Shown here one piece after another: positions 12,496 through 33,281 of a stretch of 37,060 nt of DNA. How positions within the stretch are numbered: the stretch's first letter is position 1; each line of letters opens with the position of its first letter. Origin of the DNA: a virus. Both the position numbers and the translations under genes were made by a program. The notes below the pieces were generated by a model that was not told where the DNA came from, did not search any database, and saw only the letters and a list, made by a program, of their open reading frames with translations. Location of the stretch: the IMG/VR virus record IMGVR_UViG_3300020448_000736, positions 1 to 37,060 of that record; one strand, 5' to 3'.

Positions 12496-13052
12496 ACAAG
12501 TTGATTACTTCTATACAGATTATTAATTCTACTAAAACTATCATACTCATCTTTAAAACTAATACTTAAAATGACTCGGTCGGACTCGGAAAGATTCTCT
12601 ACTCCGTGAGGCAAACTAGTATTTAAACACGCAGGTTGATTGAGAATAAATCTTTGTGTTTCAACTACATCATTATATTTTTTTGCTTGTACAGATATTT
12701 GTTTATCGCCGATTTTAATATTAGGATTATTATAATCTCCTTTTGACTCAAAAAATATTGTATGTTGTTTATCAGTAGTATCAATTGGTATATTAATCGC
12801 CACATTTCTTTTATCACTATGAGCAGATACATTTCCGCCAGCTATAGTTTTAAAAAATTTAATGTTATCTATTATATCTGGTTTTTTAAATTGATTTACA
12901 ATATAATCTACTTCTTTTAAGTCAACATATTTTGTATGTAAACTTGTTAGTTTAGTAGGACCGTAAAATGCCCATTCATTTTCATTCTTTAAAAAACAAT
13001 GATACAATTCTTCTCTATTAAATTTTAATTCTGGTATATAAAAATAGTTCAT
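12492..13052 (-). CDS. 2OG-Fe(II) oxygenase-like protein
   Basis: This 186-residue protein shows a compact cupin oxygenase plan with HSD (H78, D80) in SAHSDKRNVAINIP, a distal H149 in SLPHGVEN and R159 in SDRVILSISF. These are the iron and 2-oxoglutarate contacts of the family. It is short, close to the core fold, as in several phage and cyanobacterial members. It overlaps both neighbours by 4 nt. Together with the TauD-like protein upstream it gives two oxygenase-type proteins in one operon. The target is unknown; hydroxylation of an acyl or amino acid group is plausible. Confidence 0.72.
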   Translation of the reverse strand: MNYFYIPELKFNREELYHCFLKNENEWAFYGPTKLTSLHTKYVDLKEVDYIVNQFKKPDIIDNIKFFKTIAGGNVSAHSDKRNVAINIPIDTTDKQHTIFFESKGDYNNPNIKIGDKQISVQAKKYNDVVETQRFILNQPACLNTSLPHGVENLSESDRVILSISFKDEYDSFSRINNLYRSNQLV

Positions 13053-14111: not shown

Positions 14112-14444
14112 ATGGCTGCTATAGCTAATTTACAGATAGACCAAGGTGCTACATTTACCTCGGATGTAACCGTCAAAGACGCAAACGGAAATGCCTTTGA
14201 CTTAACAGGTTATACTGCTAGGGCTAAATTAGCAAAAGGCTATCAATCAACAAAAACAAGACAAGATATTACAACATCAATCGCTTCAGCAACTGAAGGG
14301 AAAGTTACCTTATCATTAACAGCAGACCAGACAACAGCCCTAGAAGACACTAGATACGTATATGATTTAGAGATAGTCAGCGGCGCTGTGGTCACCAGAG
14401 TTATTGAAGGTATTATCTCTGTTCGTCCTCAAGTAACCACATAA
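14112..14444 (+). CDS. Beta-rich structural protein (Ig-like / BppU-N-like)
   Basis: The 110-residue protein has an alternating beta pattern: FTSDVTVKDANGNAFDLTGYTARAKL, then KVTLSLTADQTTALEDTRYVYDLEI and VTRVIEGIISV. The LTGYTARAKL segment is common in phage tail or baseplate modules that resemble the N-terminal domain of BppU-type proteins and in Ig-like domains. It begins right after the stop of the small upstream gene. It is probably a virion protein that joins or decorates a tail fibre. Family level only. Confidence 0.65.
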   Translation: MAAIANLQIDQGATFTSDVTVKDANGNAFDLTGYTARAKLAKGYQSTKTRQDITTSIASATEGKVTLSLTADQTTALEDTRYVYDLEIVSGAVVTRVIEGIISVRPQVTT

Positions 14445-17104: not shown

Positions 17105-17434
17105 ATGGCAAGTTCGTTTATAAATGCAGGTGCAGCCCTAAATGTAGGTGATTCGGCAAGTGCTAACGTTTATACTTGTCCGGCAGGCACAAAAGCAGTT
17201 ATCCACGCTTGTATGATATCTAATTTAAATCCTTCAGGTACCTCAAAAGGGACAATAAAAATTACGACAGACGGTGGCACTACTTTTAGACACGTTTTAA
17301 AAGATGGTGAAGTACCACCGAATGACACTTTACAGATGGATAAACCTCTAAATTTAGAGGCTGGCGACATAATTAGAATATATGGTGATGTATCTAATAT
17401 GGAATGTTTTTTATCAATATTAGAATTAACATAA
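17105..17434 (+). CDS. Small beta-rich virion protein
   Basis: This 109-residue protein has a jelly-roll-like or Ig-like strand pattern: NVYTCPAGTKAVIHACMISNL, GTIKITTDGGTTFRHVL, LQMDKPLNLEAGDIIRIYG, MECFLSILEL. Such small beta sandwiches occur in phage fibres and virion decoration proteins. A GGAGG ribosome site sits upstream of the ATG. I cannot name a family with confidence. Context, between fibre genes, is the main support for a virion role. Confidence 0.65.
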   Translation: MASSFINAGAALNVGDSASANVYTCPAGTKAVIHACMISNLNPSGTSKGTIKITTDGGTTFRHVLKDGEVPPNDTLQMDKPLNLEAGDIIRIYGDVSNMECFLSILELT

Positions 17435-17441
17435 AAACTTT

Positions 17442-17449
17442 TATAAATA
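17442..17449 (+). promoter_or_regulatory. T4-type late promoter (TATAAATA)
   Basis: Exact TATAAATA in the 46-nt gap before the ATG at 17481 (31 nt spacing), followed by AGGAGA. Drives the 150-residue protein and probably the 1238-residue fibre. Confidence 0.75.
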
Positions 17450-17480
17450 TAGATAGAATTTAAGTTAGGAGAAGACCAGA

Positions 17481-17933
17481 ATGGCACTAGTAGTTAATAA
17501 GGTTTATAATGCTAAAGACGCAAATGGTAAAGTTATTACTAGTGAATATGCTCTCCACGGAATGAAGAGAGACTCTGATGGTCTTTTAACTTATACTAAA
17601 GTAAATTGGTATAGTGGTGATACTATTAATATGGACAATGGTGAGGGTACTGCCTATAACTCTGTTGGTTCATTTCAAAAGAATGAATTAGAGTATAATA
17701 CGGCAGACGGATTATATAATACAGGTCATAATATTAATGATATTCCTGTTGAATATAATTCTTCAAATGACCCACGACAAGCCAATACTAAATTTAGAAA
17801 CTATGAGCAACACGTATTTGATGAAAATAAGGCGACATACTTTATAAATGATGATGGTTACTTGGTGTTAAGAATTGGAAGTGAATATACGTATAACTCA
17901 AAAGACGGTGCAACAGCAAACTGGACCGTATAA
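17481..17933 (+). CDS. Hypothetical virion protein, 150 residues
   Basis: The 150-residue, Asn/Tyr/Gly-rich protein starts MALVVNKVYNAKDANGKVIT. The region DINNxx-like NINDIPVEYNSSNDPRQANT (near 84-103) and the C-terminal YLVLRIGSEYTYNSKDGATA look like beta-structured fibre material. A late promoter (TATAAATA, 17442) and GGAG ribosome site precede it. It is not recognised as a known family. Its position directly before the 1238-residue fibre suggests a small structural partner of that fibre. Confidence 0.65.
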   Translation: MALVVNKVYNAKDANGKVITSEYALHGMKRDSDGLLTYTKVNWYSGDTINMDNGEGTAYNSVGSFQKNELEYNTADGLYNTGHNINDIPVEYNSSNDPRQANTKFRNYEQHVFDENKATYFINDDGYLVLRIGSEYTYNSKDGATANWTV

Positions 17934-17953: not shown

Positions 17954-20900
17954 ATGGCAGATTTTGTACTAGGTAGACTAAAGTTTCACTTCAAAGGTGC
18001 TTGGACTACCGGAACCGCTTATATCAAAGATGACGTACTTACTTATGGTGGTAATGCGTTTGTATGTAAAGTAAACCATACAGCTTCAGCAGATTTTTAC
18101 ACAGATTTAAACCACGCAACTGCCAAATGGGCGAAAATGGCCGGCGGTTTTGAATACAAAGGAAATTGGGCGGCAACAACTCTTTATAAAATTGACGACA
18201 TTGTTACCTTTGGTGGTTCAACATACAGATGTTTAACAGGACATACTTCACAAGCAGACTTATATGACGACAATGCTAAGTGGCAAACATTTGCCGCTGG
18301 TTTAGCTTGGAGAGGTGATTGGGCAACTTCAACATCTTATAGAAATGATGACATAGTTAAATATGGTGCAAACACATATCTATGTACAACTCAACACACA
18401 TCTTCAGGCACAACTTTAGATGAAACTAAATTTACTTTATTTGTATCAGGATTAGAATTTGAAGACTCTTGGTCTTCAGCAACTTTATACCAATTAGGTG
18501 ACATAGTAACCTACGGCGGTTATAACTATGTTGCTGAAAGAGCAAACAACAACGTTATACCTTATAACAACTCTTCAGATTGGAAATTATTAACAACAGG
18601 ATTTAATAACACAGGTAATTGGTCAAACTCTACAGCATATAAAACTGGAGATACCGTCAATCACGGTGGTCATTATTACGTGGCTAAAATTGATGGCACA
18701 GGTCAAGAACCAACAGGTACAACTAACTCATATTGGGATTTAGTCGTTGAAGGTTTATATTGGAGAAATAACTGGACTTCATCTACTGCTTACAAAATTG
18801 GTGACGCAGTATCACACGGCTCATCTTCATACAGAGCAAAAACAAATCACACAGCGTCTGCTTCAAACAGACCAGATGTTTCAGGTCAAACTGATTGGGA
18901 CTTACTTGCAGAGGGAGATTCAAACGCAACTCTAACTACAAGAGGTGATATTTTAACTAGAGACGCAACTCAACGAGTTAGATTACCAATCGGCGCTGCT
19001 GGTACTTTCTTAAAATCAGATGGTACTGATATTGTATGGGCATTACCAAATGTAGCAAACAAAGTTTATTACGTATCAACTTCAGGTGTTGATAATACAG
19101 ATACAGGCAGAGGTACTTCTCCTGAATTACCTTGGAGAACAATTAAATATGCTTGTTCACAGGTAGCTTCAGACACAGCAAATTTCAAAACAATTAAAGT
19201 TTCAACAGGAACATATACTGAACAATTACCAATTACGGTAGCTAGAAAAACTGCTATCGTAGGTGATAACTTACGAAGTGTTACCGTTTCGCCAGATACA
19301 ACAACTGACAACGGTGCTGGTGCAGGTATTTCAAGTGATGGTTCAACACCAAATAACAGACAAACAATGTTTAGATTAAATGATTCTTGTACACTAACTG
19401 GTATGACATTTAGTGGTATGACAGGTCAATTACAAGGTTCGCCAAGTGCAGATGGTATTACAAGACCAACAACAGGTACAGGTGCAACAGCAACTGGTGT
19501 TGTTTGTGCTCTTGACCCAGGAACAGGTCCTACTGATACATCAACTCACATTCTTTACAGGTCACCTTTCGTACAAAACTGCTCATCAATAGGTACTAGA
19601 GCAGTCGGTATAAAAATTGATGGTTCTTTACACAATTCAGGTAATAAATCAATTCTTGCAAATGACTTTACACAGGTTATAGATAACGGTATAGGTGTTT
19701 GGTTATTGAATGGTGCAAAATCAGAATTAGTATCAGTATTCACTTATTACTGCCACGTAGGTTATCTAGTAGATTCAGGTGGTGTAATGCGTTCACTAAA
19801 CTCTAACAACTCTTATGGTGAAAAAGGTTCTGTTGCTTCAGGTGTTGACCCTAACGAAACACCGGTAACATCAACGGTAACTACAAGAGATAATGAGGCA
19901 ATCATTGGTAGAGCATTAGTATCAAACGCTGGTGTTTACAGATTAGAACAAGAATACGCAGGTGAAACTTATACGTCTGCTACAGAGACAATAACAGGTT
20001 CAGGCGCAAATGCTAACTTCACGGCAGATATAACTGATGGTGCAGTTAAACATATTGATACAACAACAAATGGTGATGGTCACTTCACTACAATTGGTGT
20101 TGCTCAAGGTGGTTCAACTACAACTATCAGATTAGCAGCCGCTGATACACAGGCAGATGATTTCTATAATGGTATGAGAATTACAATTACAAGTGGTACT
20201 GGTTCAGGTCAAACTGCTTACGTTGGTGACTATACTTCAGCAACAAAAACTGCTACCGTTTTCAAAGAAGATGGCACAGCAGGTTTTGACGTGTTTGGTC
20301 CGACAAGTGTTGCAGTTGCTCCTAACGCAACTACAAACTATGAGATTGAGCCAAGAGTAACCATCACAGGCGGTGGTTCTCCTACAAGAAATGCATTAGC
20401 AAGAGTTGTAATTGAAAATCAAAAAATTAAAAAGTTCTTAATCATTGATGGTGGTGCAGGTTATTCAACTGCTCCTTCGGTAACGGTAACTGACCCTAAC
20501 GCAACAACAATAGGAACAGGTACAGCTACAATCGGTGACGGAGTAATTTCAAGATGGACTTATGTAGCTGCAGGTTCAGGTTATAAACAAGAGAACACAG
20601 CAGGTACCGTAAGCGGTGATGGTTATGCAGATATTTTACCAGTAGGCGCAACGGTAAAAACTTCAGGTTTATCTGCTTCACCAAAAGCAGGTTCAAGTAT
20701 TGTATTTTCAAACGCTTCAAGTGTAAGTTATATTATCGTAACCGTTCTTTCACACGCAAACGGCGGTATAACAAATTTAGAAGTGTCGCCAAATATTTCA
20801 AAAGCAAATGCTCCAACACACGGAACAACTGCTACGATTAGACAAAATTATTCTAATATAAGATTAACAGGTCACGACTTCCTAGATATTGGTACAGGTG

Positions 20901-21670
20901 GTATTTCAACAACAAATTATCCTGACTTAAATGGTTACACACAATCACCAGACCAAGCAGATGAAGTTGATGATTTAGACAGAGGTAGAGTATTCTATAC
21001 TTCAACCGACCAAGATGGTAACTTTAGAGTTGGTGAATTGTTTAGAGTAGAACAATCAACAGGTAAGGCAACATTGAACGCAGAAGCTTTTGACCTTTCT
21101 GGATTAAGACAATTATCTCTAGGTTCTGTTGCATTAGGAAATTTTGGTGCAACCGTAAATGAATTCTCAACAGATGGTACTTTAGGTGATAATTCTGATA
21201 ATGCTCTCGTTACCGAGAAAGCTATTAGAACATTTGTTGAAAACCAATTAGGTGGTGGTCAAAACAACTTGACCGTTAACTCTGCTGTAATAGGTGAAAT
21301 AACAATATCAGGAGCAAATATATCCGCTTCAACAGGAAATACGGTAAACTTTACAACAATACCAACAACAAGTATTGACCCGACAGCAGCAACACACATT
21401 GTTAACAAAAATTATGTTGATAGTTCGGTAACTCCTAATTTACAAACATTATCTTTTGATAGAGATACAGGACAATTAAACAGAAAAGTAATAACTAACT
21501 TTAACGTTGTAAATCAATATGAAGATACATTATTTAATGCTGCTGAACAAAATGCAGGTTTTGATGTAATTAACGGCTCTGTTAGAATTGAAATTGACAA
21601 AGCAGGAAATTTAATTTATAGAACAACAGGAGACGCTGAGCAAGGTGTAGAAACTCCTAGCAACGAGTAA
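17954..21670 (+). CDS. Large tail fibre: six carbohydrate-binding-like modules plus beta-helix-like body
   Basis: The 1238-residue protein has six tandem modules of about 50 residues at roughly 13-62, 66-115, 118-166, 169-215, 218-266 and 269-319. Each has the pattern W-x4-tAY-x3-D-x-V-x-yGg-x2-Y (for example GNWAATTLYKIDDIVTFGG), like the CBM5/12 chitin-binding fold. Next come a phage fibre linker (TTRGDILTRDATQRVRLPIG) and a body starting VYYVSTSGVDNTDTGRGTSP, typical of right-handed beta-helix proteins. Low-complexity Gly/Thr repeats follow. The modules probably bind cell-surface polysaccharide, and the body might hold a lyase or only a scaffold; no catalytic residues are obvious. It may be the main adhesin of a tail fibre. 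Confidence 0.85.
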   Translation: MADFVLGRLKFHFKGAWTTGTAYIKDDVLTYGGNAFVCKVNHTASADFYTDLNHATAKWAKMAGGFEYKGNWAATTLYKIDDIVTFGGSTYRCLTGHTSQADLYDDNAKWQTFAAGLAWRGDWATSTSYRNDDIVKYGANTYLCTTQHTSSGTTLDETKFTLFVSGLEFEDSWSSATLYQLGDIVTYGGYNYVAERANNNVIPYNNSSDWKLLTTGFNNTGNWSNSTAYKTGDTVNHGGHYYVAKIDGTGQEPTGTTNSYWDLVVEGLYWRNNWTSSTAYKIGDAVSHGSSSYRAKTNHTASASNRPDVSGQTDWDLLAEGDSNATLTTRGDILTRDATQRVRLPIGAAGTFLKSDGTDIVWALPNVANKVYYVSTSGVDNTDTGRGTSPELPWRTIKYACSQVASDTANFKTIKVSTGTYTEQLPITVARKTAIVGDNLRSVTVSPDTTTDNGAGAGISSDGSTPNNRQTMFRLNDSCTLTGMTFSGMTGQLQGSPSADGITRPTTGTGATATGVVCALDPGTGPTDTSTHILYRSPFVQNCSSIGTRAVGIKIDGSLHNSGNKSILANDFTQVIDNGIGVWLLNGAKSELVSVFTYYCHVGYLVDSGGVMRSLNSNNSYGEKGSVASGVDPNETPVTSTVTTRDNEAIIGRALVSNAGVYRLEQEYAGETYTSATETITGSGANANFTADITDGAVKHIDTTTNGDGHFTTIGVAQGGSTTTIRLAAADTQADDFYNGMRITITSGTGSGQTAYVGDYTSATKTATVFKEDGTAGFDVFGPTSVAVAPNATTNYEIEPRVTITGGGSPTRNALARVVIENQKIKKFLIIDGGAGYSTAPSVTVTDPNATTIGTGTATIGDGVISRWTYVAAGSGYKQENTAGTVSGDGYADILPVGATVKTSGLSASPKAGSSIVFSNASSVSYIIVTVLSHANGGITNLEVSPNISKANAPTHGTTATIRQNYSNIRLTGHDFLDIGTGGISTTNYPDLNGYTQSPDQADEVDDLDRGRVFYTSTDQDGNFRVGELFRVEQSTGKATLNAEAFDLSGLRQLSLGSVALGNFGATVNEFSTDGTLGDNSDNALVTEKAIRTFVENQLGGGQNNLTVNSAVIGEITISGANISASTGNTVNFTTIPTTSIDPTAATHIVNKNYVDSSVTPNLQTLSFDRDTGQLNRKVITNFNVVNQYEDTLFNAAEQNAGFDVINGSVRIEIDKAGNLIYRTTGDAEQGVETPSNE
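17990..18910 (+). repeat. Six tandem ~150-bp protein-module repeats (CBM5/12-like)
   Basis: Within the 1238-residue fibre gene, six in-frame units of 47-52 codons recur with the pattern W-x4-tAY-x3-D-x-V-x-yGg. DNA identity between units is low while the protein pattern is kept, so this is an old, selected repeat and not recent slippage. Confidence 0.8.
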
Positions 21671-21677
21671 TTATAGA

Positions 21678-21685
21678 TATAAATA
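21678..21685 (+). promoter_or_regulatory. T4-type late promoter (TATAAATA) with very short leader
   Basis: Exact TATAAATA 9 nt before the ATG at 21695. The predicted transcript leader is only about 3-4 nt, too short for a Shine-Dalgarno. The intergenic gap is only 24 nt, so read-through from upstream may supply the translated message. Confidence 0.65.
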
Positions 21686-21694
21686 GGATATAAA

Positions 21695-24600
21695 ATGGCA
21701 ATAACTAGAACAAAAATCGGAAATTTATGGTTTAATTATCGTGGCGAATACGATAATTCTATCGCTTATAAAAAAGACGATATCGTATTATGGAATAATA
21801 CTGATTACTTAATGATTAGAGAATCCGATACAACTGGTAAGAGACCAGAACAAAATACTAACTATCATTATAACATTCAGGTAACAACTGACCCTAGCGA
21901 TTCAACATCAAAATTTCAAATAGACGCTGATGAAACTTCTACTATCGAGTGGGCTACTGCTCTTTATGTAAGAAGAGGTGATAAAATTACTTTTTATCAA
22001 AATAATAATAACAATGATGACCAACCTTTGGCATTATCAACAACTGCTACAAGTCAAACTTCAAATTATTTAACTGAAGGTGTTTCTTATTATCATAATG
22101 AGGAACAAGTTTCTCAATCAGACTATGTAACCACAGCAAAATTTAATCCTAAAACTGCTAGAAGAGTGGTCGTTGAGTTTACAAAAGATACACCAGATGA
22201 AATTTATTACTTCTCTGCTGGTACAGGCGGTGCGAGTTATGGTGCAAAAATTGTAGTCGCAGATTGGGACACTTGGAGACCTTTAAGAAATTCATTTAAG
22301 TGGAGAAATTTCCACGTAAATACAAGCGGTACGGTTTATTATGAAAATGATATTGTAAAAGTTAGACACGGAATTAATAATGACCAAGGTACAGATTACG
22401 AGGGTCAATCAAAGAAAGAAACTTTATCAACTTATATCTGTTTAAGACAACATACAACAGATGGCACAGAAAGATTTTTACCTTATAACAGAAATGTTGA
22501 CACTAATGCAAATATGTATTGGATGAAAATGGGTGCTGAATATGAATCAGATGATGAGAGATATGAAAATAACGGTGTAATTGAAACCGTAAATAATATT
22601 TCAGCTGCTGACTCTTCAAGATTGCACGGAGTATTTAGAAATGTATCTCCTAAATCTACATCAAACTCAGCCGCTAACGTACATCCAGGTATGTTTAAAA
22701 TTACCGTTCAAGGTAATGGTAACATTTTAGATACAGACAATTTCGCAGCTGCTGACTCATCAAGAACAGCAGGTAAATATACAAACGTAACCCAATCAGC
22801 AACAACTGGTGCAGGTACGGCTGCTACTTTTGATGTTACCGTAGATTCAACAGGTGCAGTTTCAAAAATAGAAATTATTAAAAGTAGAAATAAATCAACT
22901 ACACCAACAGGTGGTTCAGGTTATGTTGATGATGAACAATTAACTATTGCTGACGCTTCATTAGGTGGCGGTGGTGCTGCTGACTTTACTTTCTCTGTAA
23001 ACGGAGTAGGTACAGCAGGTGCGGCTACAATTGAAGTAGAAAGAGAAAATAGAGATTCACAAAGACATAGAAGATATTTTAATGACACAGGTATGATTTC
23101 AGGTGGTGAAAATAATGTTGTTGGTGATACTTTAACTTTTGACGGAGATATATTTGGTGGTGGTGCAGATTTAACTTGTCAAGTTGCAACAACTAGAAAA
23201 CAAACTAGAGGTATGGCAACAATTTATACAGGTAACCCACACGAATGTGTATCTTTAATTAACAATGGACCTTTAGGTGATGATAACAAATATTACAGAT
23301 TATCAGGTCAAAGAACATCAAGACATTGTGTAGATTGGCCAGTATTCCACGGCGGTACAGGTAATATGTGGACTTGGGGTAGTTCTTCAACAGGTCAAAA
23401 CGGAATGGACCAAACATTTATGACTGCTACTCAAATGCAATTTCCTCACTATGATTGGTGGAGAAGTACAGACAATGGTGGTACAGGTGTTCACTCAACA
23501 CCAGATGGCGAAGTTCCTAAAATTATTCAAATAGAAGGTGGTTATGAGTCAGGTATGGCTCTTATGAATTCAGGTGAATTATATCATTGGGGTTATGGTG
23601 GTCACGGTCAAAATGGTGACGCTTCAACTTCAAACCGAAGTTATGCTGTAAGAGTTGGTGGTACAGATACAAACGTTTACTTAGCTGCTAACGATTCAAA
23701 CCACGTATTTAGAAGTGTAAGAATTAAAAGATGTTTCATATCAAACTGGCAAGGTTATAATGACAACACTCACTCTTGTTATGCAATTGATGAAGATGGT
23801 GAATTATGGTCTTGGGGTTATAACGGATATGGACAATTAGGTACAGGTAATACAACTAACTATAACGTACCTCAAAAAATTGCAAAAGCTTCTAACTTTA
23901 ACAATAGTGAAATAGAAGCGTTTTGGACTTGTGGTGAATCTTATGTAATGTGTTTAGCATATACTAAAGAGAAAAAATTATACGCTTGGGGTTATAACAA
24001 TAACGGACAATTAGGTATTGGTAATACTTCAAATCAAAATACTCCTCAAGAGGTAACAACGGTAACTTTTGATGGCACAGGTGTTGGTGAAATTAAAAAA
24101 GTTCAAATGTTATCAAGAAGTTCTAGTTTATCAGCAGGTATCTTAACTGAAAGAGGAACAATTTATATGGCAGGTTATAATAACCAAGGTCACTTTGGAA
24201 ATGGTAACACTACAAACTTAAACACTTGGACAATAGCGTCAAATGGTCCAGGTAATGCTTCAAATGCAGATTGTGAAAACTTTTGGTGGGGTGGTAATGG
24301 TGACTATGCTCAACAATGGGTTGAAGACTCACTAGGTAATATTTTATGTGCTGGTTACAATAACCATTATTCATTAGGTGATGGTTCAAATACAACTAGA
24401 AACGGATTTGTAACCCCTAAATTTCAATTAGGTTCAGACACAACAAGAGATTTTAAAAATGTTAAAATGATTTCTTTCTATCCTCATTATAATGATTTAA
24501 GTACAAAAATATTAACTTGGGACGGAATGTTATATGCTACTGGCGATAACAGATATGGTCAATGTGGTTTTGGTTGGACTTCAACTAACGGAACAGCAGA

Positions 24601-24856
24601 TAGAGATTCAGAAAACCAAAAAGAACACTTTAATAATGGCTATTTTATGCCAATGAGATTGCCTTCTTCAATGCAAGGTAAAGTCGAAGATGTTAGAGGT
24701 TGTGGTTATGGAAACAACTCTGACAACGTGTATGCTTTTTGGGAATACAAAACTTATGACAATAGATATTATCTAAATGGTTATGGTGGAAGTTATATAA
24801 TGGGAAATACTAACGGTGGTCAAAGAGATATCCCTAGTCCACCAATTTTAGGATAA
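21695..24856 (+). CDS. Tail fibre with N-terminal CBM-like module, degenerate cupredoxin-like domain and RCC1 beta-propeller
   Basis: In 1053 residues the order is: CBM-like module near 14-45 (YRGEYDNSIAYKKDDIVLWN), a domain near 60-180 that aligns with the copper domain of the next fibre but has lost its ligands (YYFSAGTGGASYG where the other has YYCSQHSGMG), Asn/Gly-rich linkers, and seven RCC1-type repeats starting near 555, 626, 702, 760, 820, 881 and 943. These read like GELWSWGYNGYGQLGTGNTT. Seven blades would close a propeller. In RCC1 proteins the propeller is a protein or ligand recognition surface; here it is probably the receptor-binding end. A late promoter lies only 9 nt before the ATG. 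Confidence 0.83.
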   Translation: MAITRTKIGNLWFNYRGEYDNSIAYKKDDIVLWNNTDYLMIRESDTTGKRPEQNTNYHYNIQVTTDPSDSTSKFQIDADETSTIEWATALYVRRGDKITFYQNNNNNDDQPLALSTTATSQTSNYLTEGVSYYHNEEQVSQSDYVTTAKFNPKTARRVVVEFTKDTPDEIYYFSAGTGGASYGAKIVVADWDTWRPLRNSFKWRNFHVNTSGTVYYENDIVKVRHGINNDQGTDYEGQSKKETLSTYICLRQHTTDGTERFLPYNRNVDTNANMYWMKMGAEYESDDERYENNGVIETVNNISAADSSRLHGVFRNVSPKSTSNSAANVHPGMFKITVQGNGNILDTDNFAAADSSRTAGKYTNVTQSATTGAGTAATFDVTVDSTGAVSKIEIIKSRNKSTTPTGGSGYVDDEQLTIADASLGGGGAADFTFSVNGVGTAGAATIEVERENRDSQRHRRYFNDTGMISGGENNVVGDTLTFDGDIFGGGADLTCQVATTRKQTRGMATIYTGNPHECVSLINNGPLGDDNKYYRLSGQRTSRHCVDWPVFHGGTGNMWTWGSSSTGQNGMDQTFMTATQMQFPHYDWWRSTDNGGTGVHSTPDGEVPKIIQIEGGYESGMALMNSGELYHWGYGGHGQNGDASTSNRSYAVRVGGTDTNVYLAANDSNHVFRSVRIKRCFISNWQGYNDNTHSCYAIDEDGELWSWGYNGYGQLGTGNTTNYNVPQKIAKASNFNNSEIEAFWTCGESYVMCLAYTKEKKLYAWGYNNNGQLGIGNTSNQNTPQEVTTVTFDGTGVGEIKKVQMLSRSSSLSAGILTERGTIYMAGYNNQGHFGNGNTTNLNTWTIASNGPGNASNADCENFWWGGNGDYAQQWVEDSLGNILCAGYNNHYSLGDGSNTTRNGFVTPKFQLGSDTTRDFKNVKMISFYPHYNDLSTKILTWDGMLYATGDNRYGQCGFGWTSTNGTADRDSENQKEHFNNGYFMPMRLPSSMQGKVEDVRGCGYGNNSDNVYAFWEYKTYDNRYYLNGYGGSYIMGNTNGGQRDIPSPPILG
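23355..24620 (+). repeat. RCC1-type repeat array, seven units
   Basis: Seven in-frame units of about 58-76 codons in the 1053-residue fibre gene share the core L-x-x-W/A-G-x-N-x-x-G-Q-L-G-x-G-N-T. Seven is the blade number of a closed RCC1 propeller. Confidence 0.8.
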
Positions 24857-24859
24857 ATA
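24852..24859 (+). promoter_or_regulatory. Late-promoter variant (GATAAATA)
   Basis: GATAAATA, overlapping the stop of the previous fibre gene, 19 nt before the ATG at 24879 with a weak purine-rich GAGAGAT ribosome region. One base from the consensus; probably a weaker late promoter. Confidence 0.5.
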
Positions 24860-24878
24860 ATAAGAGAGATAAAAAACT

Positions 24879-27800
24879 ATGGCAAAAATTAATTTAGGAA
24901 GAGTTAAATTCGCATTTCAAGGCGATTGGAATAATAATACAAATTATCGTAAAGATGATGTTTGTTGGTTTAATAACTCTTTATGGATTTGTACTAACCC
25001 TTACTTATCAAATGGTTACGACAATATGGCGCCAGGTGATAAGAACACAGGTTATTTCTGGACAAGAACATTCTCAAATGACCCGGATAGACGTAGAGGT
25101 TATCACATTATGGAAGATGACTTCCAAAGAAGTAATGAAACAGGTAATCCTGTAATCAATACTTCAAGATATGGTAATGATGAAAATACGCAAGAGTCAA
25201 CTAGAAACGGTCAAAGATTTGGCCAAGCAGATTACTTTAACAATAACTCAAATAACGGTGGTTATTTTTTAGATTATCAATCACACTTATTAGAAGATAA
25301 TGAAACTTACGCAATGGGTGACCCAGGTAATTTTATGGGTTATGGTGAGTTAAATACAAACAAAATTCAATTCTACCAAAATTATGTACCGGTAGAGAAT
25401 AACTTTCACGTAGAAATTCAAACTTCACCAGCAAATAAATTTAAAATTGATAATAGAATTGCAAGCTCAACTTTAGGAAGAAATACTTTTGGTGGCGAAG
25501 GCGGTGGTTTTAGAACATTTACACACTTTAAAGAAGGTTTTAAATATAGATTTAATCAAAGACACGAAACTAATAAAAATTTTCCATTAGGATTTTCAAC
25601 AACTGCTGATGGTATACATAACTCATCACCAGGAACATCACTAGCTGCTGATGAAGACGGACCATATTTTGTTGTAGGTACAACTACAGCAGGAGATACT
25701 GGAGTTTTCTATCCTTTATATCTATCAGCTGCAGGTGCAAATGCTGAAGATACAAGATTAGGTGGTGCAGGTTCAAGTGCTACTTTAAACTTTTCAGAAA
25801 TTACAAGAGGACCTAATAACGAATTAGTTTCAAATGAAAGTGGCACAAACTTTTATTTACCAGATATGATTGACTCAACTGCTGTTGATGAAAGAATATT
25901 TGAGGTTGCAGTAGTAGATGGTAACCCTAGTGACCACCCATATTACAATACAGGTTCTACAAAAAAATATTCTATCAATGGTTCAACTGCTACAGCAGAT
26001 GTAACCTTAAATTTAGTAGAGGGTAAAACTTATAGATTTGACCAATCAGACTCTTCAAACTTAACTCACCCTTTAAGATTTTCTACAACTGCTAATGGTA
26101 CTCACGCTTCAGGCTCAGAGTTCACAACAGGAGTAAGAACGGTGGGAACACCAGGTAAAAAAGGTGCATTTACAGAAATTAAAGTTAGAAAAGGTACTGC
26201 TAAATTATACTACTATTGCTCACAACACTCTGGTATGGGTTGGTCAGCAGACACAATTACACCAAGTTCAAGAGCAAGAAGTTTTGTACCTTCAAATACA
26301 CCAATGTACAAAGGTGCTAACAAAAACGGTTTAGTTAGATACTTCTTAAATAACAAACAGGTAACTGAAACACAATATAAAGAAACTTTTGCTGATACAA
26401 TACCAAATGAGGGTAATTCTTATACTGGTGATATGCCAGCATATACTACTGAAGATGGTTCTACAAGAGGTGGTCAGGTTTATTCTTGGAAGAAAAATCA
26501 AGATAGACAAGTTGAAATTTATATTCCTGTAGGTTTCTATAAACAAAGAAGTCAAAAAATTTATCCTTTCTGTTTAGACTCAGCGGCAACAAAAGCAGAT
26601 ATGTATTCTGATTTAGGTTGGGATGTAGAAGAGTCTTGGAGAGGTTACAAACATTGGGATAGATTACAAACAGGTATTAAATTTTGTGGTAAATATAATC
26701 CAGCTCACCACTACAGCTACAATGATATTGTAATTTACAGACCAGAAAAAAGATTATCAGATGGTGAAATATCACCTCAAGGTCCAACAGGTATTTACAG
26801 ATGTATTAGAGATTCAAAAGGTAGACCTCCTCATTATGGTCCTCAAGATGTTACCGTGTCGCCTTTAAGAACAAAATCTACAACAACAAGTGGTAAATTA
26901 ATTAGAAAAGAATATCAAGAATATCCAGCACACATACAATCATATTGGAATGATTGGGAATCTTTTGGTAGACAAGTTAACCAAGCTGAAGAGGCAAACG
27001 CTTGGTATGGTAACAAAGGTCCTATTCATTGGCCGTATAAACACTATACAGCAACATCTATGAATGATGATAACGTTTACAGACACATTGATAAAAACGG
27101 TGTATTATGGGGTATTAACTATCCTCAAACTGGTTTTCAACAAGATGGTTCTTATTACGCTTCATATTACGAAGAAATAAATTTAAGATGGAGAGATTGG
27201 TGGAGAAGTGAAGATTTAAACTATACAGGTTACAATGAAAATAGAGGCAGACATAGAAGTACGGTTAGAAAACCTTTAACAACACCTAGATGTGTTCAAA
27301 TTCAAGAAGGTAGACAAGGTGCTTCATTACTATTTGATAACGGAGAAGTTTACACAAACGGTGAAAACTCAAATGGTGAAATGGGAGTAGGTCACGAGCA
27401 AGGTGATAACTACGGATTTATGAGAGTTTTAGGTTTAGAAGATGTTAAAATTATTAAAATGGCAGAAAGACAATGGTCAAACAACACCCACCACAAAATG
27501 GCACTAGATGATTCAGGTTGTGTATGGGTTTGGGGTTATAATGGTTACGGCGAGATTGGTGATGGTAGAACACAAAATAAACCAGCACCTTATAGAATAC
27601 CAGCAAAATATTTTGACAACGAAAAAATTATAGACATTGCTTGTACAGACCAAAGTTCTTATGTAAGAACAGCTAGTGATACTTTGTATTCTTTTGGTAG
27701 AAATGGTAATGGACAATTAGGTGATAATACTACAACAGACAAATACAGACCTGTTAAAATGGCAAATTGGGATCCAAGTGCAAACAATGGTATCGCAGTA

Positions 27801-28505
27801 TGGCAAATATCTGGTCAAGGAAATAACGTTTGGGTTACTTTACTAGACGGAAACGGTTATACTTGGTTTACAGGTCATAATGACTATGGTAATTCAGGTG
27901 CAGGTAACACATCAAATTTAAGTCAATTAACTAAAATTGAAACAGCACCTAACGGTGACTTTGTTGATTTATGGACTATGTATTGGAATGGTTATAAGTC
28001 TTGTTTTGGTAGACACAAAGACGGAACAATGTATGGTTGGGGTTATTCAGGTAGTTATTACAACCTTGGTACAGGTCAAACTGGTAACCAAACATCACCA
28101 ACGCAAGTTCAAAACGTAAAAAATTGTAAAGAAATTTCTATATCTTGTAGTTATTCAGATTACGGTAGAAGTTTTTGGGTAGAAGATAGTGGATTGGCTT
28201 GGTGTTATGGTCAAGATTCTAGAAATGCAATGCTTCATCCGGTTGCAGGTAGTAATTACCAACAAGACGGTTCAAATTACTATCCATTTAGATGGTGGAC
28301 ACCTGCTGGTGCAAGAGTTAGAAATATGCACATAACAACAGATGACCAAGGTTCAAGTTCATATGCAGGTGGTTATAGATTTACAGATGAACACGGAAAA
28401 ATTTATCATTGGGGAAGAAATAACTGGTGTACTGGTCACAACTGGTGGACACACGGTTGGACTTCAACAGGTGGTTATGCATATAACCAGGGACACGGAA
28501 GATAA
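24879..28505 (+). CDS. Tail fibre with cupredoxin-like copper domain and RCC1 beta-propeller
   Basis: In 1208 residues the order is: CBM-like module near 14-45 (FQGDWNNNTNYRKDDVCWFN); a first cupredoxin-like domain near 186-280 without ligands; a second near 370-455 with H397 (NLTHPLRFS) and C447, H450, M453 (YYCSQHSGMG), the four type-1 copper ligands with amicyanin-like C-x2-H-x2-M spacing; a Tyr/Trp-rich region; and RCC1-type repeats near 740, 821, 880, 934, 992, 1049, 1104 and 1173 (VWVWGYNGYGEIGDGRTQN). The propeller is probably the receptor-facing part. The copper site could stabilise the fibre, bind metal, or be a relic of a domain spread among marine proteins. A GATAAATA promoter variant precedes the gene. 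Confidence 0.83.
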   Translation: MAKINLGRVKFAFQGDWNNNTNYRKDDVCWFNNSLWICTNPYLSNGYDNMAPGDKNTGYFWTRTFSNDPDRRRGYHIMEDDFQRSNETGNPVINTSRYGNDENTQESTRNGQRFGQADYFNNNSNNGGYFLDYQSHLLEDNETYAMGDPGNFMGYGELNTNKIQFYQNYVPVENNFHVEIQTSPANKFKIDNRIASSTLGRNTFGGEGGGFRTFTHFKEGFKYRFNQRHETNKNFPLGFSTTADGIHNSSPGTSLAADEDGPYFVVGTTTAGDTGVFYPLYLSAAGANAEDTRLGGAGSSATLNFSEITRGPNNELVSNESGTNFYLPDMIDSTAVDERIFEVAVVDGNPSDHPYYNTGSTKKYSINGSTATADVTLNLVEGKTYRFDQSDSSNLTHPLRFSTTANGTHASGSEFTTGVRTVGTPGKKGAFTEIKVRKGTAKLYYYCSQHSGMGWSADTITPSSRARSFVPSNTPMYKGANKNGLVRYFLNNKQVTETQYKETFADTIPNEGNSYTGDMPAYTTEDGSTRGGQVYSWKKNQDRQVEIYIPVGFYKQRSQKIYPFCLDSAATKADMYSDLGWDVEESWRGYKHWDRLQTGIKFCGKYNPAHHYSYNDIVIYRPEKRLSDGEISPQGPTGIYRCIRDSKGRPPHYGPQDVTVSPLRTKSTTTSGKLIRKEYQEYPAHIQSYWNDWESFGRQVNQAEEANAWYGNKGPIHWPYKHYTATSMNDDNVYRHIDKNGVLWGINYPQTGFQQDGSYYASYYEEINLRWRDWWRSEDLNYTGYNENRGRHRSTVRKPLTTPRCVQIQEGRQGASLLFDNGEVYTNGENSNGEMGVGHEQGDNYGFMRVLGLEDVKIIKMAERQWSNNTHHKMALDDSGCVWVWGYNGYGEIGDGRTQNKPAPYRIPAKYFDNEKIIDIACTDQSSYVRTASDTLYSFGRNGNGQLGDNTTTDKYRPVKMANWDPSANNGIAVWQISGQGNNVWVTLLDGNGYTWFTGHNDYGNSGAGNTSNLSQLTKIETAPNGDFVDLWTMYWNGYKSCFGRHKDGTMYGWGYSGSYYNLGTGQTGNQTSPTQVQNVKNCKEISISCSYSDYGRSFWVEDSGLAWCYGQDSRNAMLHPVAGSNYQQDGSNYYPFRWWTPAGARVRNMHITTDDQGSSSYAGGYRFTDEHGKIYHWGRNNWCTGHNWWTHGWTSTGGYAYNQGHGR
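27095..28485 (+). repeat. RCC1-type repeat array, seven to eight units
   Basis: The C-terminal third of the 1208-residue fibre gene has units near codons 740 (weak), 821, 880, 934, 992, 1049, 1104 and 1173 with the same core as the preceding fibre, for example TLYSFGRNGNGQLGDNTTTD. Confidence 0.75.
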
Positions 28506-28513
28506 TATAAATA
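28506..28513 (+). promoter_or_regulatory. T4-type late promoter (TATAAATA)
   Basis: Exact TATAAATA just after the stop of the copper-domain fibre gene, 27 nt before the ATG at 28541, with a strong AAAGGAGA ribosome site. Confidence 0.75.
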
Positions 28514-28540
28514 GTATTAATACTAAAGGAGAAAACTAAA

Positions 28541-28960
28541 ATGGCAAAGAAAGTGTTTAAAGTCAAAGAAATCGCTCTTGAAGCTGATTATGTGGCACCA
28601 GTCGTATCAAGCGGTAATGGTCCTCTTTCACTTCAGACTATGGATAGTTATGCTTTCTTTTCTTATGACGATTCGGAAGTTACCGTTGACGCTAGTGGTA
28701 CTAATGCAAGTAAATATGGTGTTAAAGTTCTTGACGCTTCAGACGCTGATGATTTAGCGGATATGAAAGCATTGAGACACACGGTATCAATTGCAATGGA
28801 AGTCGCAAGAAAAGTAGAAGATTTTGAAGCAGAATATCCAAAAGTTGTGGTTTATGACGCAATAATTAATGATGTTTCAGCAGTTAAAACAGCAATTGAA
28901 ACATTAAAAACAGATGTAAACGCTATATACGCAAACTACGGTTTACCGGCTATAGCATAA
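28541..28960 (+). CDS. Hypothetical virion-associated protein, 139 residues
   Basis: The 139-residue protein begins MAKKVFKVKEIALEADYVAP and has two parts: a beta-rich start (TMDSYAFFSYDDSEVTVDAS) and a helical second half (about 72-135) that could form a coiled coil. No family recognised. It has a full late promoter (TATAAATA, 28506) and the best ribosome site of the block (AAAGGAGA), so it may be made in quantity. It lies between two RCC1 fibres; a chaperone, joining or capping protein for those fibres is possible but unproven. Confidence 0.7.
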   Translation: MAKKVFKVKEIALEADYVAPVVSSGNGPLSLQTMDSYAFFSYDDSEVTVDASGTNASKYGVKVLDASDADDLADMKALRHTVSIAMEVARKVEDFEAEYPKVVVYDAIINDVSAVKTAIETLKTDVNAIYANYGLPAIA

Positions 28961-28982
28961 TAAAATAAAAGGTTAAACAAAG

Positions 28983-31226
28983 ATGGCTTTTGAATTAAAC
29001 GAATTTAAACTTAAATGGCAAGGTCCTTGGAGAGATAGAACAGCTTACTCCAAGAATGATATTGTTATGTGGAAAGGAAAATCTTATAGATGTATAAGAG
29101 ATTGTCCTGTAGCATATACATTATCAGGTGATTTCCTAGTTAACACATCTAACTATTCAATGGACCCAATGAGATTAGTCCAAAAGTCTTTTAGACCTGA
29201 CAATCCAAAATACTGGCAATTGTTTTTACGTTCAACAGATGATATTACAGAATGGGAATTTTGGAGACAATATGAACCAGGCGAAATGTGTTCAGTTGGT
29301 AGAAAAATTTATCAATGTATAAAAAGAACAAGACGTTATAATACTTGGGTTGAAGAACATAGAGGTGAGCCAAGTGAATATTGGATAAAAATTTACGAAT
29401 CACCATTTGCATATCCAGACAGAAATAGAACCGTATCGTACACTAACAGGACTCCTTTAGGTTGGAAGTACAATATGGGTAGAAATGCTAATGAAATGTG
29501 TACTCACTATTCATTAGGTGTTATAATGTCAAACGGAGACGCAATGCGTTGGGGTGGTAATGATGATACCGGAATGATGGGGAATGGTGACGGAACAAGT
29601 GGCTCAGGTAGAACAGGTAGACCACATATGACAGGTTTTACAAATATTGACTGGAGAACATCAACAGATAATAAAGATGTTGCAAAAGGCCACGAATTTA
29701 CAGGTCATATGGTAACACCAGACGCTGAAGCTCCGAAATGTATTCAATGGTGTACAGGTCATAACTTTAGTGTTTGGCTAATGAATAACGGTGAAGTTTA
29801 TACTTCAGGTTACAATGGTCATTATCAATTAGGTTATAACGAGGGTAGTTCAACAAACTCAACAAATAGAAATTATACAAACAGAGTATCAGCAAGTGAT
29901 ACGGTTGATTGGTTAGGAGATACAATACGTTCTTTTAACGATACAAAAATGGTAAAAGTTGGTACAACTTCTCAAGGACACCAATCAAGTGGTAAAGCAA
30001 TTTGGTCATTAGGTGAAGATGGTTCAGTTTGGATTTGGGGTTATAACAACCAAGGTCAAGCAGGTTTTGGTAATCCTAGTATCAATAACTCAACAGATAC
30101 TAACGGTGGTTCGCCTTACTCATTTTCATTTTATTCAGGAAATATAAGAAGACCAATTAAAATTCCTCAACAATTCTTTAACAACAAAAGAATTATTGAT
30201 ATGTGGGGCTCAGGTAACGAAGAAATGTATTGGCACGCCCTTGATGAAGACGGTTACTTATGGGCTTGGGGACAAGACGTTTACGGTTGCCTAGGAGTTG
30301 GTATGAATTCTCATACTTCTCAAGGTACTTATTACTACACAATTCCAAGAAGAGTTGAAATTAATTGGAATCAATATGGTGGTATGAAACTAATTCAACA
30401 TTGGTCTTATGACGGACAAGGTCACGCAGGTACTTGGGTACTAGATGGCGAAGGCTATATGTGGTACACAGGTTACTTAACAAACGGACAAGTTCCAGGT
30501 ATGTATGGTATTGGTGATAACAATACTGCTTATCAAGCTGAGTTTAGAAGAGGTGATTTTCACTTAAACGGTGATGTTGATGAATTCTGGTGTGGTGGTG
30601 ATGAAAACAAATGGATGTACATTAGACAAAAATCAACAGGTATGTTATGGGTAAATGATGGTAACTACGGAACATATGGTACTAGAGGTTCAAGAGTACA
30701 ACAAGGTTACTGGTATCAATCAGGCGGAATTCACGGAATGTTTTCTCATTTAAGAGGACCAAAATACGTAAGATATATTCAAGGTCAAAACTCTAATAGA
30801 GGTGATGGTTCATACATTTATGACTCACCTGGTATATTAGATGAAGATGGTGGACTCTGGTATGGTAATAATTACGGTTATAGATACTTTCCTTCATTAT
30901 CAAATGATAATCCTGATAATAATGATGACGGTTATCAAATGGATATGTCTCAAGGTTTTGAATCTAATGCTGAAAACAGACATAGAAAAAGAAGAGCTGT
31001 ACAACCTTGTAATAGTAAAATTGTGGACTTTGGTTCATACGGTTATCCAACGGTGATGAATTATTACTTTAGAGACCAAAATGGTAAATTATATACATCA
31101 GGTTATCAACCAAATAACCAAACATATATGTTTTCAATGATGCCCTACCGTTATCAGTCAGCAACTGGTTCATCTTGGGGAAGTAATAACTATCGTGCTC
31201 ATATGGCTTCATCGCCAGGTGATTAA
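28983..31226 (+). CDS. Tail fibre with CBM-like module and RCC1 beta-propeller
   Basis: The third RCC1 fibre has 747 residues. A CBM-like module opens it (WQGPWRDRTAYSKNDIVMWK, near 13-32), and a second related segment lies near 85-120 (YEPGEMCSVGRKIYQCIKRT). RCC1-type repeats begin near 185, 270, 347, 424, 491, 553, 623 and 701 (SVWIWGYNNQGQAGFGNPS, YLWAWGQDVYGCLGVGMN). The last ones are weak. There is no cupredoxin-like domain, which explains most of the shorter length. Three fibres with the same ends but different middles suggest duplication and shuffling. Probably a receptor-binding fibre. Confidence 0.83.
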   Translation: MAFELNEFKLKWQGPWRDRTAYSKNDIVMWKGKSYRCIRDCPVAYTLSGDFLVNTSNYSMDPMRLVQKSFRPDNPKYWQLFLRSTDDITEWEFWRQYEPGEMCSVGRKIYQCIKRTRRYNTWVEEHRGEPSEYWIKIYESPFAYPDRNRTVSYTNRTPLGWKYNMGRNANEMCTHYSLGVIMSNGDAMRWGGNDDTGMMGNGDGTSGSGRTGRPHMTGFTNIDWRTSTDNKDVAKGHEFTGHMVTPDAEAPKCIQWCTGHNFSVWLMNNGEVYTSGYNGHYQLGYNEGSSTNSTNRNYTNRVSASDTVDWLGDTIRSFNDTKMVKVGTTSQGHQSSGKAIWSLGEDGSVWIWGYNNQGQAGFGNPSINNSTDTNGGSPYSFSFYSGNIRRPIKIPQQFFNNKRIIDMWGSGNEEMYWHALDEDGYLWAWGQDVYGCLGVGMNSHTSQGTYYYTIPRRVEINWNQYGGMKLIQHWSYDGQGHAGTWVLDGEGYMWYTGYLTNGQVPGMYGIGDNNTAYQAEFRRGDFHLNGDVDEFWCGGDENKWMYIRQKSTGMLWVNDGNYGTYGTRGSRVQQGYWYQSGGIHGMFSHLRGPKYVRYIQGQNSNRGDGSYIYDSPGILDEDGGLWYGNNYGYRYFPSLSNDNPDNNDDGYQMDMSQGFESNAENRHRKRRAVQPCNSKIVDFGSYGYPTVMNYYFRDQNGKLYTSGYQPNNQTYMFSMMPYRYQSATGSSWGSNNYRAHMASSPGD
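29530..31130 (+). repeat. RCC1-type repeat array, seven to eight units (divergent)
   Basis: Most of the 747-residue fibre gene is made of units near codons 185, 270, 347, 424, 491, 553, 623 and 701. Spacing (60-85 codons) is larger and less regular than in the other two fibres; the last three units are weak. Confidence 0.7.
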
Positions 31227-31246
31227 TAAATAGTTTTTGACTATTT
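31225..31246 (+). promoter_or_regulatory. Late-promoter variant (AATAAATA) overlapping an AT-rich hairpin
   Basis: AATAAATA (31225-31232) stands before the unknown gene of the bilin operon (ATG 31263, GGAG upstream). The same bases can pair: AAATAG (31228-31233) with CTATTT (31241-31246), loop TTTTTGA, followed by T-rich sequence. It may be a weak promoter, a weak terminator of the fibre block, or both. Confidence 0.3.
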
Positions 31247-31262
31247 TTATTATGGAGTTAAA

Positions 31263-32009
31263 ATGTACAAAACGAAACAAAACTATTTAAAATTTCAATC
31301 TCACGATATATTCGGCGATAAATTTCAATCATATCCAAAAGAAATGCAGGCAACATACTGGTATCAAGTATGGTGGATTATCAATCATTTTGAAACAATG
31401 ATGAATGGTGTTGATTTTGAACATCACAATCAAAGAAATATATTAAGAGACAAGTGGGAAAAATTATGGCCGTTTCAAATTAGAAACTATACACTTGGTG
31501 GTGCACCTGCTATGCCTAAAATGCCTCACACAACAGACTTAATTCATAAGTTAGGTGAAGATTATAATTTTAATACACCGGCAATGTTGCTTAATAGAAC
31601 ATTTTGGAAAAAAGATTGGTTTTCTTATCAAGTTATATATGGTACAACCGTTGATTTGTTTAAACAAGTATTAAAAGTTAGTGATGAAGATATAGAAGCA
31701 TTTTTAAAACCATTAGCAGATTATAAACCAAAAGATTATATACTACCAAGAATACGTGTTGTTAGTGGATTTGTATCATTAGCTGATTACTTTATGAAAA
31801 CTAAAGATATGTGGATACAAACAAAAGAGTTTGGTGACTGGAGAGAAAAAGATAATTTAAGAAAAATAGAAGAATTTAAAAAGTATGGCGAAGTTTCAGA
31901 TGAAATACCTGAGGACTATCCTTTAGATAAAACAAAAATATTAGATACACGAAAATTAAATAATAGATGGAAAAGAGAAAAACCTTTTTTAGAAAATGAG
32001 TATGATTAA
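31263..32009 (+). CDS. Unrecognised protein, first gene of the bilin operon
   Basis: The 248-residue protein is rich in aromatic residues (YWYQVWWIINHFETMMNGV near 33-51; WEKLWPFQIRNYTLGGAPAM near 65-84). It has no signal peptide, no clear membrane span and no motif that I recognise. Predicted structure is mainly helical with a charged C-terminal tail. Its stop shares one base with the heme oxygenase start (TAATG), so the two are translationally coupled. The ribosome site is GGAG. It may be a partner of heme or bilin metabolism, or a virion protein that happens to precede those genes; the sequence does not decide. Confidence 0.75.
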   Translation: MYKTKQNYLKFQSHDIFGDKFQSYPKEMQATYWYQVWWIINHFETMMNGVDFEHHNQRNILRDKWEKLWPFQIRNYTLGGAPAMPKMPHTTDLIHKLGEDYNFNTPAMLLNRTFWKKDWFSYQVIYGTTVDLFKQVLKVSDEDIEAFLKPLADYKPKDYILPRIRVVSGFVSLADYFMKTKDMWIQTKEFGDWREKDNLRKIEEFKKYGEVSDEIPEDYPLDKTKILDTRKLNNRWKREKPFLENEYD

Positions 32010-32611
32010 TGGAGCAAGAGAAAAAATATAGAATAAAAGAGTTAACTTGGGAATATCATAAAAATGCTGAAAGACAGCAGTTTGTGAAATTACTTTTATC
32101 AGGTACTATTGATGAAAAACTATATGCAACATACTTATATAATCAATTAAAGTGTTATTCTAAATTAGAACAATATTGTTTAGAAAGTTCTTTGTTTTTA
32201 GATACTTTAAATCTACCAAGAGCTGAACATATATTTTATGATTACAGAGCGTTATGGGGAGATATAGGTAGTCCGCCAATAGAAACTGAAAGTACAAAAG
32301 CGTATGTTGAACATTTAGATACTATCAGAGGTGAAAATGAAAAACTATATGCTCACGTATATGTTAGACATTTAGGTGATTTATCAGGTGGTCAGATGAT
32401 TAAAAGAAAAACTCCTGGACCTAATAGATACTATATATTTAAACACGGTGAGGCAAAAGAATATAAAAGAATTGTTAAAGAAAGAGTTGAAAGTTATTTA
32501 AATTTATATGAGGTAAACGTGTTGCCAGAAGCAATCTTTTGCTTTGAAAGTGCAACAAAACTATTTAAGGAAATGTATGATTTGGGAAAGACTAATCAAG
32601 TGGCAAAATGA
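32009..32611 (+). CDS. hemO: Heme oxygenase (biliverdin-forming)
   Basis: The 200-residue protein has the full pattern of heme oxygenases: the proximal heme ligand H17 in TWEYHKNAER, a helical body (FVKLLLSGTIDEKLYATYLY), and the distal-helix Gly motif HLGDLSGGQM (121-130), which lets O2 bind heme. It opens heme to biliverdin, CO and iron using electrons from ferredoxin. Length is typical of bacterial and phage forms. It is coupled to the unknown gene upstream and overlaps the bilin reductase by 35 nt, so biliverdin would pass straight to the next enzyme. Host ferredoxin would be the electron source. The gene symbol follows the name used for such phage genes; ho1 is also used. Confidence 0.93.
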   Translation: MEQEKKYRIKELTWEYHKNAERQQFVKLLLSGTIDEKLYATYLYNQLKCYSKLEQYCLESSLFLDTLNLPRAEHIFYDYRALWGDIGSPPIETESTKAYVEHLDTIRGENEKLYAHVYVRHLGDLSGGQMIKRKTPGPNRYYIFKHGEAKEYKRIVKERVESYLNLYEVNVLPEAIFCFESATKLFKEMYDLGKTNQVAK

Positions 32612-33281
32612 GACTATTGAAGTCTTAAATAAAAATCTGGTTGAATACAAAGAACCGGGTATGGAAAGATTCAACAATGAAAAATTAGGTTGGGTCAATA
32701 GAACCTGGAATAACAGATATATTAGAAGAGCACATTTAGATGTTGTTGATGTAAGGGAATCAAAAGGACTATGGATGGCACATCTATGTCTTTTTCCTAT
32801 GTTAACAAATGGTGGACCGATTTATGGTTTTGATATTATAGCAGGTGAAAAGAAAGTCACCGGTGCCTTTCACGATTTTAGTCCTCTATTACAAAAAGAC
32901 CACCCATTAACAAAATGGTTTATAGAAGAAAATAAGTGGTTTAAACCGAGTAAAGAGAGAGAGTTACCAGATTGGGCGAAGGCTATCTTTTCGGGAGGTA
33001 TGATAGCCGCTGGTAATGTAAGAGAAGAAGATGAATTAAATAAAATTTGCACAATGGCAGTTTCTAATTTAAATAATTATATAGATAAAATTAGAAATCA
33101 CGAAGGCGAAGCAGATATAAAAGAAGTAATTAAAGCACAAAATTACTATTCTGAACATCAACAAAAGAATCCACACACGCCTAGAGTTATGCAATCTCTT
33201 GGTTTGCCTGAAGAGGATATTAAATTATTCTGTTCGGACAACCTATTTCCGTTTGTTTCAGAAAACCAACCCTACTTGTAA
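32577..33281 (+). CDS. pcyX: Ferredoxin-dependent bilin reductase, PcyA/PcyX type
   Basis: From the ATG at 32577 (AAGGA about 5 nt upstream) the protein has 234 residues; a longer frame to 32544 has no such site. It matches the HY2/PcyA/PebS family: AHLDVVDV (H53, D55), WMAHLCLFP (H69), PIYGFDIIAG (D86) and TGAFHDFSP. In Synechocystis PcyA the matching residues are H74, E76, H88 and D105, so the catalytic His/Asp pair is kept while E76 is Asp. E76 serves reduction of the 18-vinyl group, so the product may be phycoerythrobilin, as reported for the phage enzyme PcyX, not phycocyanobilin. The subfamily name is inferred from this residue and from the hemO context. Confidence 0.88.
   Translation: MIWERLIKWQNETIEVLNKNLVEYKEPGMERFNNEKLGWVNRTWNNRYIRRAHLDVVDVRESKGLWMAHLCLFPMLTNGGPIYGFDIIAGEKKVTGAFHDFSPLLQKDHPLTKWFIEENKWFKPSKERELPDWAKAIFSGGMIAAGNVREEDELNKICTMAVSNLNNYIDKIRNHEGEADIKEVIKAQNYYSEHQQKNPHTPRVMQSLGLPEEDIKLFCSDNLFPFVSENQPYL

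Follow-up and report, generated by a model that had tools for sequence, protein, structure and literature searches.

RCC1-like proteins are already known as components of phage virions, even three in a row (W70, phAPEC6). In the Escherichia phage W70 (Vequintavirinae), three consecutive RCC1-like genes (W70_237-239) encode proteins that were all detected in virions and that the authors interpreted as DNA-encapsulating (PMC11370258). The jumbo phage phAPEC6 carries eleven RCC1-like genes, several with products detected in virions (PMC7247149), and RCC1-like proteins were also found in virions of the jumbo phage GAP32 (PMC5259590). Packaging or DNA condensation has been suggested as the role of these virion proteins in all three phages (PMC11370258, PMC7247149, PMC5259590). 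RCC1-repeat genes also adjoin tail-fibre genes in Kyanoviridae cyanophages, namely S-SRM01, which has three, and BUCT-ZZ01. In the phages of SAR11 (pelagimyophages), a host-recognition cluster or island has been defined between the baseplate and neck genes; it was described as nonsyntenic, and the text makes no mention of RCC1 or propellers (PMC7029224). Our search of the open literature found no paper describing an RCC1 set in pelagimyophages.

Here we analysed a 37-kb linear virus fragment (37,060 nucleotides, hereafter the window). T4-type neck and sheath genes occupy its right end, with matches to the phrog_211 head-tail adaptor, the T4 neck protein and gp15. The isolates nearest by gp15 are the Pelagibacter phages Mosig (71%) and HTVC008M (55%), both ahead of all cyanophages, thus the window phage is probably a T4-like marine phage related to the SAR11 phages, with SAR11 as its predicted host. 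An initial annotation had reported three large consecutive genes at 21695-31226, and the coordinates proved exact: the three open reading frames (g1, g2 and g3; Table 1) encode 1053, 1208 and 747 aa, all on the plus strand. A fourth, small gene (g139), overlooked by that annotation, separates g2 from g3. The fibre gene g0 precedes the trio and a heme oxygenase/pcyA pair (32009-33281) comes after it, with the neck genes gp13/14/15 further downstream at 33-36 kb. The trio has both fibre-type domains and a location among tail and baseplate genes, after g0 and before gp13-15, and its genomic place is that of the pelagimyophage host-recognition cluster (PMC7029224). Unlike that cluster as described, however, the RCC1 block is strictly syntenic within its own lineage.

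Table 1. Features of the RCC1 locus in the window (breakpoints of the exchanged block are approximate).
Feature	Position	Strand	Description
g0 C-terminal part	21250-21670	+	last ~140 codons of fibre gene g0 (17954-21670), upstream of g1; varies with the cassette type, whereas the remaining g0 does not
g1	21695-24856	+	1053 aa; CBM5/12-like module 1-~60, beta-domain 60-195, second CBM-like segment ~196-285, spacer, predicted RCC1 propeller ~541-1053
g2	24879-28505	+	1208 aa; from the N-terminus, a CBM5/12-like module, two or more mutually related beta-domains (~150-300, 336-470), another CBM-like segment (~591-690) and a predicted RCC1 propeller ~715-1208
g139	28541-28960	+	139 aa; small partner, constantly between g2 and g3; no family match
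g3	28983-31226	+	747 aa; CBM5/12-like module, second CBM-like segment ~86-145, predicted degenerate RCC1 propeller ~155-747; no middle beta-domain
g248	31263-32009	+	fast-evolving; closes the exchanged block on the right; no counterpart recognised in more distantly related groups
Exchanged block, types A vs C	21250-32100	+	exchanged as a unit

In the phage Mosig, g0, heme oxygenase and pcyA occur in matching order; next to g0, however, it carries an Ig/Gly-rich gene and a single small gene, and its genome has no RCC1 gene. A 136-aa gene of Mosig was considered as a homologue of g139, but the g139 profile does not find it. The gene adjoining heme oxygenase is a homologue of pcyA (phycocyanobilin:ferredoxin oxidoreductase) by position and by the Mosig annotation; this pair, also present in Mosig, places bilin synthesis genes in a phage that probably infects the non-photosynthetic SAR11. 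At the other end of the window (275-13846), most genes run on the minus strand. Among the products encoded there are a carbamoyltransferase, a DegT-type aminotransferase, a fatty-acid desaturase and a TauD-type dioxygenase; in types B and C (see below), close relatives have different genes at this site.

The C-terminal RCC1-type domain reported for all three proteins was significant by Pfam, g3 being the more degenerate. PF25390 matched g1, g2 and g3 with E=3e-65, 1e-38 and 1.5e-17, and PF00415 with E=5e-28, 8e-24 and 4e-5, respectively. All three exceeded the curated PF00415 cut-off; for PF25390 (cut-off 150 bits) only g1 did (221 bits, vs 134 for g2 and 65 for g3). Every one of 14 g3 orthologues matched RCC1. 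Among PDB profiles, UVR8 was matched by g1 (1e-60) and g2 (1e-39), and RCC1/SRM1 by g3 (2e-6), and the three propeller regions aligned with one another in hhalign over ~460-470 columns (E 6e-95, 2e-50 and 4e-43). Eight repeat units could be discerned by eye in each protein; with an independent repeat profile, derived from a different phage, 4-6 units were recognised in g1 and, for the most part, 4-5 in both g2 and g3, which indicates that the C-terminal units are degenerate. By sequence, the C-termini of g1-g3 are thus predicted RCC1-type propellers, and may adopt the seven-bladed fold. The repeat family is, by sequence profile, common to eukaryotic RCC1 and UVR8, but those are cellular proteins that lack fibre modules. 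phrog_4219, the virion RCC1-like family to which the W70 proteins are assigned, was the best-matching family for g1 (E 1e-37) and g3 (7e-7) and was also matched by g2 (3e-17). No match to g3 was found among 50,697 phage records. A cellular origin of the RCC1 genes was also considered; the scan of genome contigs gave one distant RCC1 protein, from a Wolfebacteria MAG.

At the N-terminus, the carbohydrate-binding-like module proposed to be common to the three proteins was recovered as ~40 CBM5/12-like residues (hhalign 8e-8 to 8e-20), which also match the six CBM5/12 modules of g0. PF02839 (CBM5/12) was strong in g0 (E 3e-32) and below the cut-off in g3 (E 6e-4); g1 and g2 gave no PF02839 match, and their modules were detected by profile to g0 or g3. 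Profile comparison and reading of the sequences suggest a second, more degenerate CBM-like segment ahead of each propeller. The middles had been described as swapped. They do differ, and g3 lacks the beta-domain, but those of g1 and g2 are homologous: g1 60-195 aligns with g2 336-470 (E 5e-14), and within g2, 150-300 aligns with 336-470 (E 2e-16). One copy is present in g1, at least two in g2 and none in g3, so that the middles differ, as judged by these alignments, through copy number and insertion and not through unrelated swaps. Distant relatives have compact forms of g1 (863-908 aa) and g2 (882-923 aa), which also align through their middles. The beta-domain at g2 336-470 is common to many marine T4-like tail fibres, and g2 335-463 matches tail-fibre PHROGs.

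This fibre-fused architecture separates g1-g3 from the described phage proteins. The three W70 proteins, although likewise encoded in a row, are about 40 kDa each, too short for a long fibre-type N-terminal part, and Pfam RCC1 is barely detectable in the W70 genome, unlike in g1-g3. Those of phAPEC6 and GAP32 are also encoded by multiple genes, but they are short (30-42 kDa for those listed), present in many copies and not described as fibre fusions. The RCC1 proteins of S-SRM01 and BUCT-ZZ01 measure 344-407 and 700 aa and form a clade separate from g1-g3.

Relatives were collected by each of g1, g2 and g3 and, against bias, also by g0. Among g0-anchored contigs with a g0 identity of at least roughly 45%, g1 directly followed g0 wherever the sequence could be read. 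The order g1-g2-g139-g3 was found in every contig long enough, that is in about 27 loci (some of them near-duplicates) with g1 identities from 100% to ~40%, and no spanning contig had lost or duplicated g1, g2 or g3. With the g139 profile, the small gene was detected at 29 of the g0-anchored loci; every one of these has the trio, and g0-anchored loci without the trio gave no match. Loci with 35-38% g0 identity and several g0 copies had no RCC1 gene in the stretch read. In the distant relatives L123-L130 and L133, at least two long g0 paralogues are present and RCC1 genes are lacking nearby; this slot apparently holds a different fibre design there. In one further relative (L132, about 5038-13179), the trio is followed by homologues of the window genes 14112-14444 and 14748-16457, which are upstream of the trio in the window, thus the order of the block and its neighbours can differ.

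A tree of the propellers, for which proteins of S-SRM01 and BUCT-ZZ01 served as outgroup, showed g1, g2 and g3 as three clades (support 100/99, 100/99 and 100/100), within which the deeper lineages branch in similar order. The duplications are thus older than the whole sampled radiation, and g1-g3 are ancient paralogues, each monophyletic across divergent relatives; the tree rules out swapping between them. It is conceivable, at perhaps one chance in five, that each product forms a fibre or spike independent of the other two and recognises a receptor of its own, the three being co-inherited since all are needed or useful and never entering a mixed complex. Indeed, an N-terminal attachment module and a complete propeller are present in every one of the three; the fact that no contig lacks a member and that g139 is kept between g2 and g3 is, however, easier to understand if the products act together.

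Close relatives could be sorted into three types, A (the window), B and C. Their flanking genes (g0, heme oxygenase, pcyA and gp13-15) are about 84-99% identical regardless of type. The genes g1-g2-g139-g3-g248 are mostly 76-98% identical within types (g248 down to 62%), but 65-80% between types, with g139 at 42-60% and g248 at 40-55%; the neighbouring heme oxygenase gene reaches 85-92%. Between A and C, pS was 0.27 in g0 vs 0.48-0.53 in g1-g3, and within type C, pS of g1-g3 (0.16-0.23) was lower than that of all scored genes outside the block (0.26-0.51). Nucleotide identity of A to C drops at ~21,250, within the g0 C-terminus, and rises again at ~32,000-32,250. The tree of g0 residues 1-1050 left A and C together in an unresolved group with B apart (100), whereas those of g1 and g2 joined A and B (99/100 and 96) with C apart on a long branch; the g3 tree supports the same deep C clade. 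All together, these results argue strongly that a block of ~11 kb has a genealogy separate from its surroundings and has been exchanged as a unit; it extends from the last ~140 codons of g0 (~21.2 kb) as far as the heme-oxygenase gene (~32.1 kb). The C-terminus of g0 (residues ~1101-1238) tracks the cassette, with A-C identities of 58-84% vs 91-97% for the remaining g0. Such tracking would be expected if this part touched the cassette products, but it could also merely mark where the crossovers fell. A second variable stretch, comprising two small genes (17105-17933) in which B stands apart from A and C, is separate from the RCC1 block.

The exchange of the whole block bears on the proposal that the trio is a host-range switching set, namely three alternative adhesins used or swapped singly. 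Paralogous adhesin-like genes in tandem within a variable island would suit such a set. Yet the paralogues are one-to-one in all spanning contigs and unmixed, and no reverse transcriptase (PF00078) was found in 13 relatives of 45-122 kb, possibly fragments, so that a diversity-generating retroelement is unlikely and retroelement-driven diversification of g1-g3 is disfavoured. One-at-a-time switching was therefore dropped from our interpretation as very improbable; host-range switching, if any, would involve the whole block and not single members.

A comparison of the blade loops for diversifying selection had also been proposed. To locate replacements along the repeat, we compared 13-15 non-overlapping close pairs per gene over 24 repeat units, with anchors set by eye beforehand and 2000 randomisations. 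Replacements depended on repeat phase beyond any randomisation: positions -18 to -13 before the conserved glycine were hot (0.092 replacements per site and pair, p=0.0005) and positions -11 to -6 cold (0.026). Synonymous changes were flat at the hot positions (0.076 vs 0.076 expected); the overall synonymous profile was also somewhat uneven (p=0.0005), thus we put weight on the contrast between hot and cold positions. The hot stretch aligns with the GWRHT-like loop of UVR8, which makes up the dimer face of that protein; in RCC1, the equivalent loops face Ran. This concentration of replacements is the pattern that a ligand-binding face would show; as to its cause, ordinary loop tolerance is an alternative, since loops accept change for reasons besides ligand binding.

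Between types, pN was 0.15-0.24 in g1-g3 and 0.04-0.09 in the neck genes, roughly a two- to fivefold difference, with pS being comparable. This difference speaks against g1-g3 being DNA-condensing or internal head proteins, as was suggested for the phAPEC6 and W70 proteins (PMC7247149, PMC11370258) and as PHROG implies by placing the family under DNA metabolism. The label in PHROG is a name acquired by transfer; in g1-g3, the propellers are joined to fibre modules (in g2 also to a T4-like tail-fibre domain), and the genes lie in the host-recognition island. We consider such a role for g1-g3 highly unlikely, slightly more so even than the singly used adhesins.

We rather favour, with reasonable though not high confidence, that g1-g3, together with g139, encode a composite host-recognition apparatus of a T4-like marine phage, probably one infecting SAR11. 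The sequence evidence for paralogy, linkage and block exchange is strong; from it we infer that the products of g1-g3 are located in the virion, dock there, assemble jointly and bind receptors. Fibre-type N-termini and RCC1 C-termini in all three proteins, a place beside the neck genes in the host-recognition cluster, the fixed order, the three unmixed ancient clades, the genealogy and breakpoints of the block and the hot-phase replacements all argue for this reading, as does, by analogy, the presence of RCC1-like proteins in W70, phAPEC6 and GAP32 virions (PMC11370258, PMC7247149, PMC5259590). Against it, block exchange could stem from linkage alone, and the close relatives Mosig and HTVC008M do without RCC1. 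Being inherited and exchanged as one block, the three genes most likely specify one composite device, not three interchangeable spares. The earlier idea of a modular receptor-recognition set on the tail therefore holds as far as the island, the fibre N-termini, the fast amino-acid change and the cassette recombination support it, and its mixed-fibre version fits the strict co-inheritance.

A scenario may be proposed in which an ancestral fibre protein, made of a CBM-like module, a beta-domain, a second CBM-like module and an RCC1 propeller, was encoded by a gene that underwent two or more ancient duplications. Its three descendants would have diverged in length and middle domains and become co-dependent, with g139 as a small partner. 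Their products would probably dock via the N-terminal fibre modules onto the baseplate or g0, with the propellers facing outward and loops on one propeller face contacting the host surface. The ligand might then change through point changes in the loops or through recombination replacing the whole ~11 kb block. More tentatively, the three propellers may form one hetero-oligomeric tip that offers three distinct binding faces and is perhaps organised by g139, so that host choice would depend on a matched set inherited and exchanged only as a block.

What is new here is the long, fibre-fused RCC1 form, the ancient trio with its small partner g139 and the exchange as a block. SAR11 cells are among the most abundant in the sea, and host recognition by their large phages is largely unknown. 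The four genes g1-g2-g139-g3 form a well delimited unit that is strictly conserved and, in close relatives, comes in three or more exchangeable types; it lends itself to direct tests. Its block-wise inheritance supports a multi-protein receptor-binding apparatus that is swapped whole, and suggests for the puzzling RCC1-like phage virion proteins labelled as DNA condensation proteins a possible role as outward-facing adhesins.
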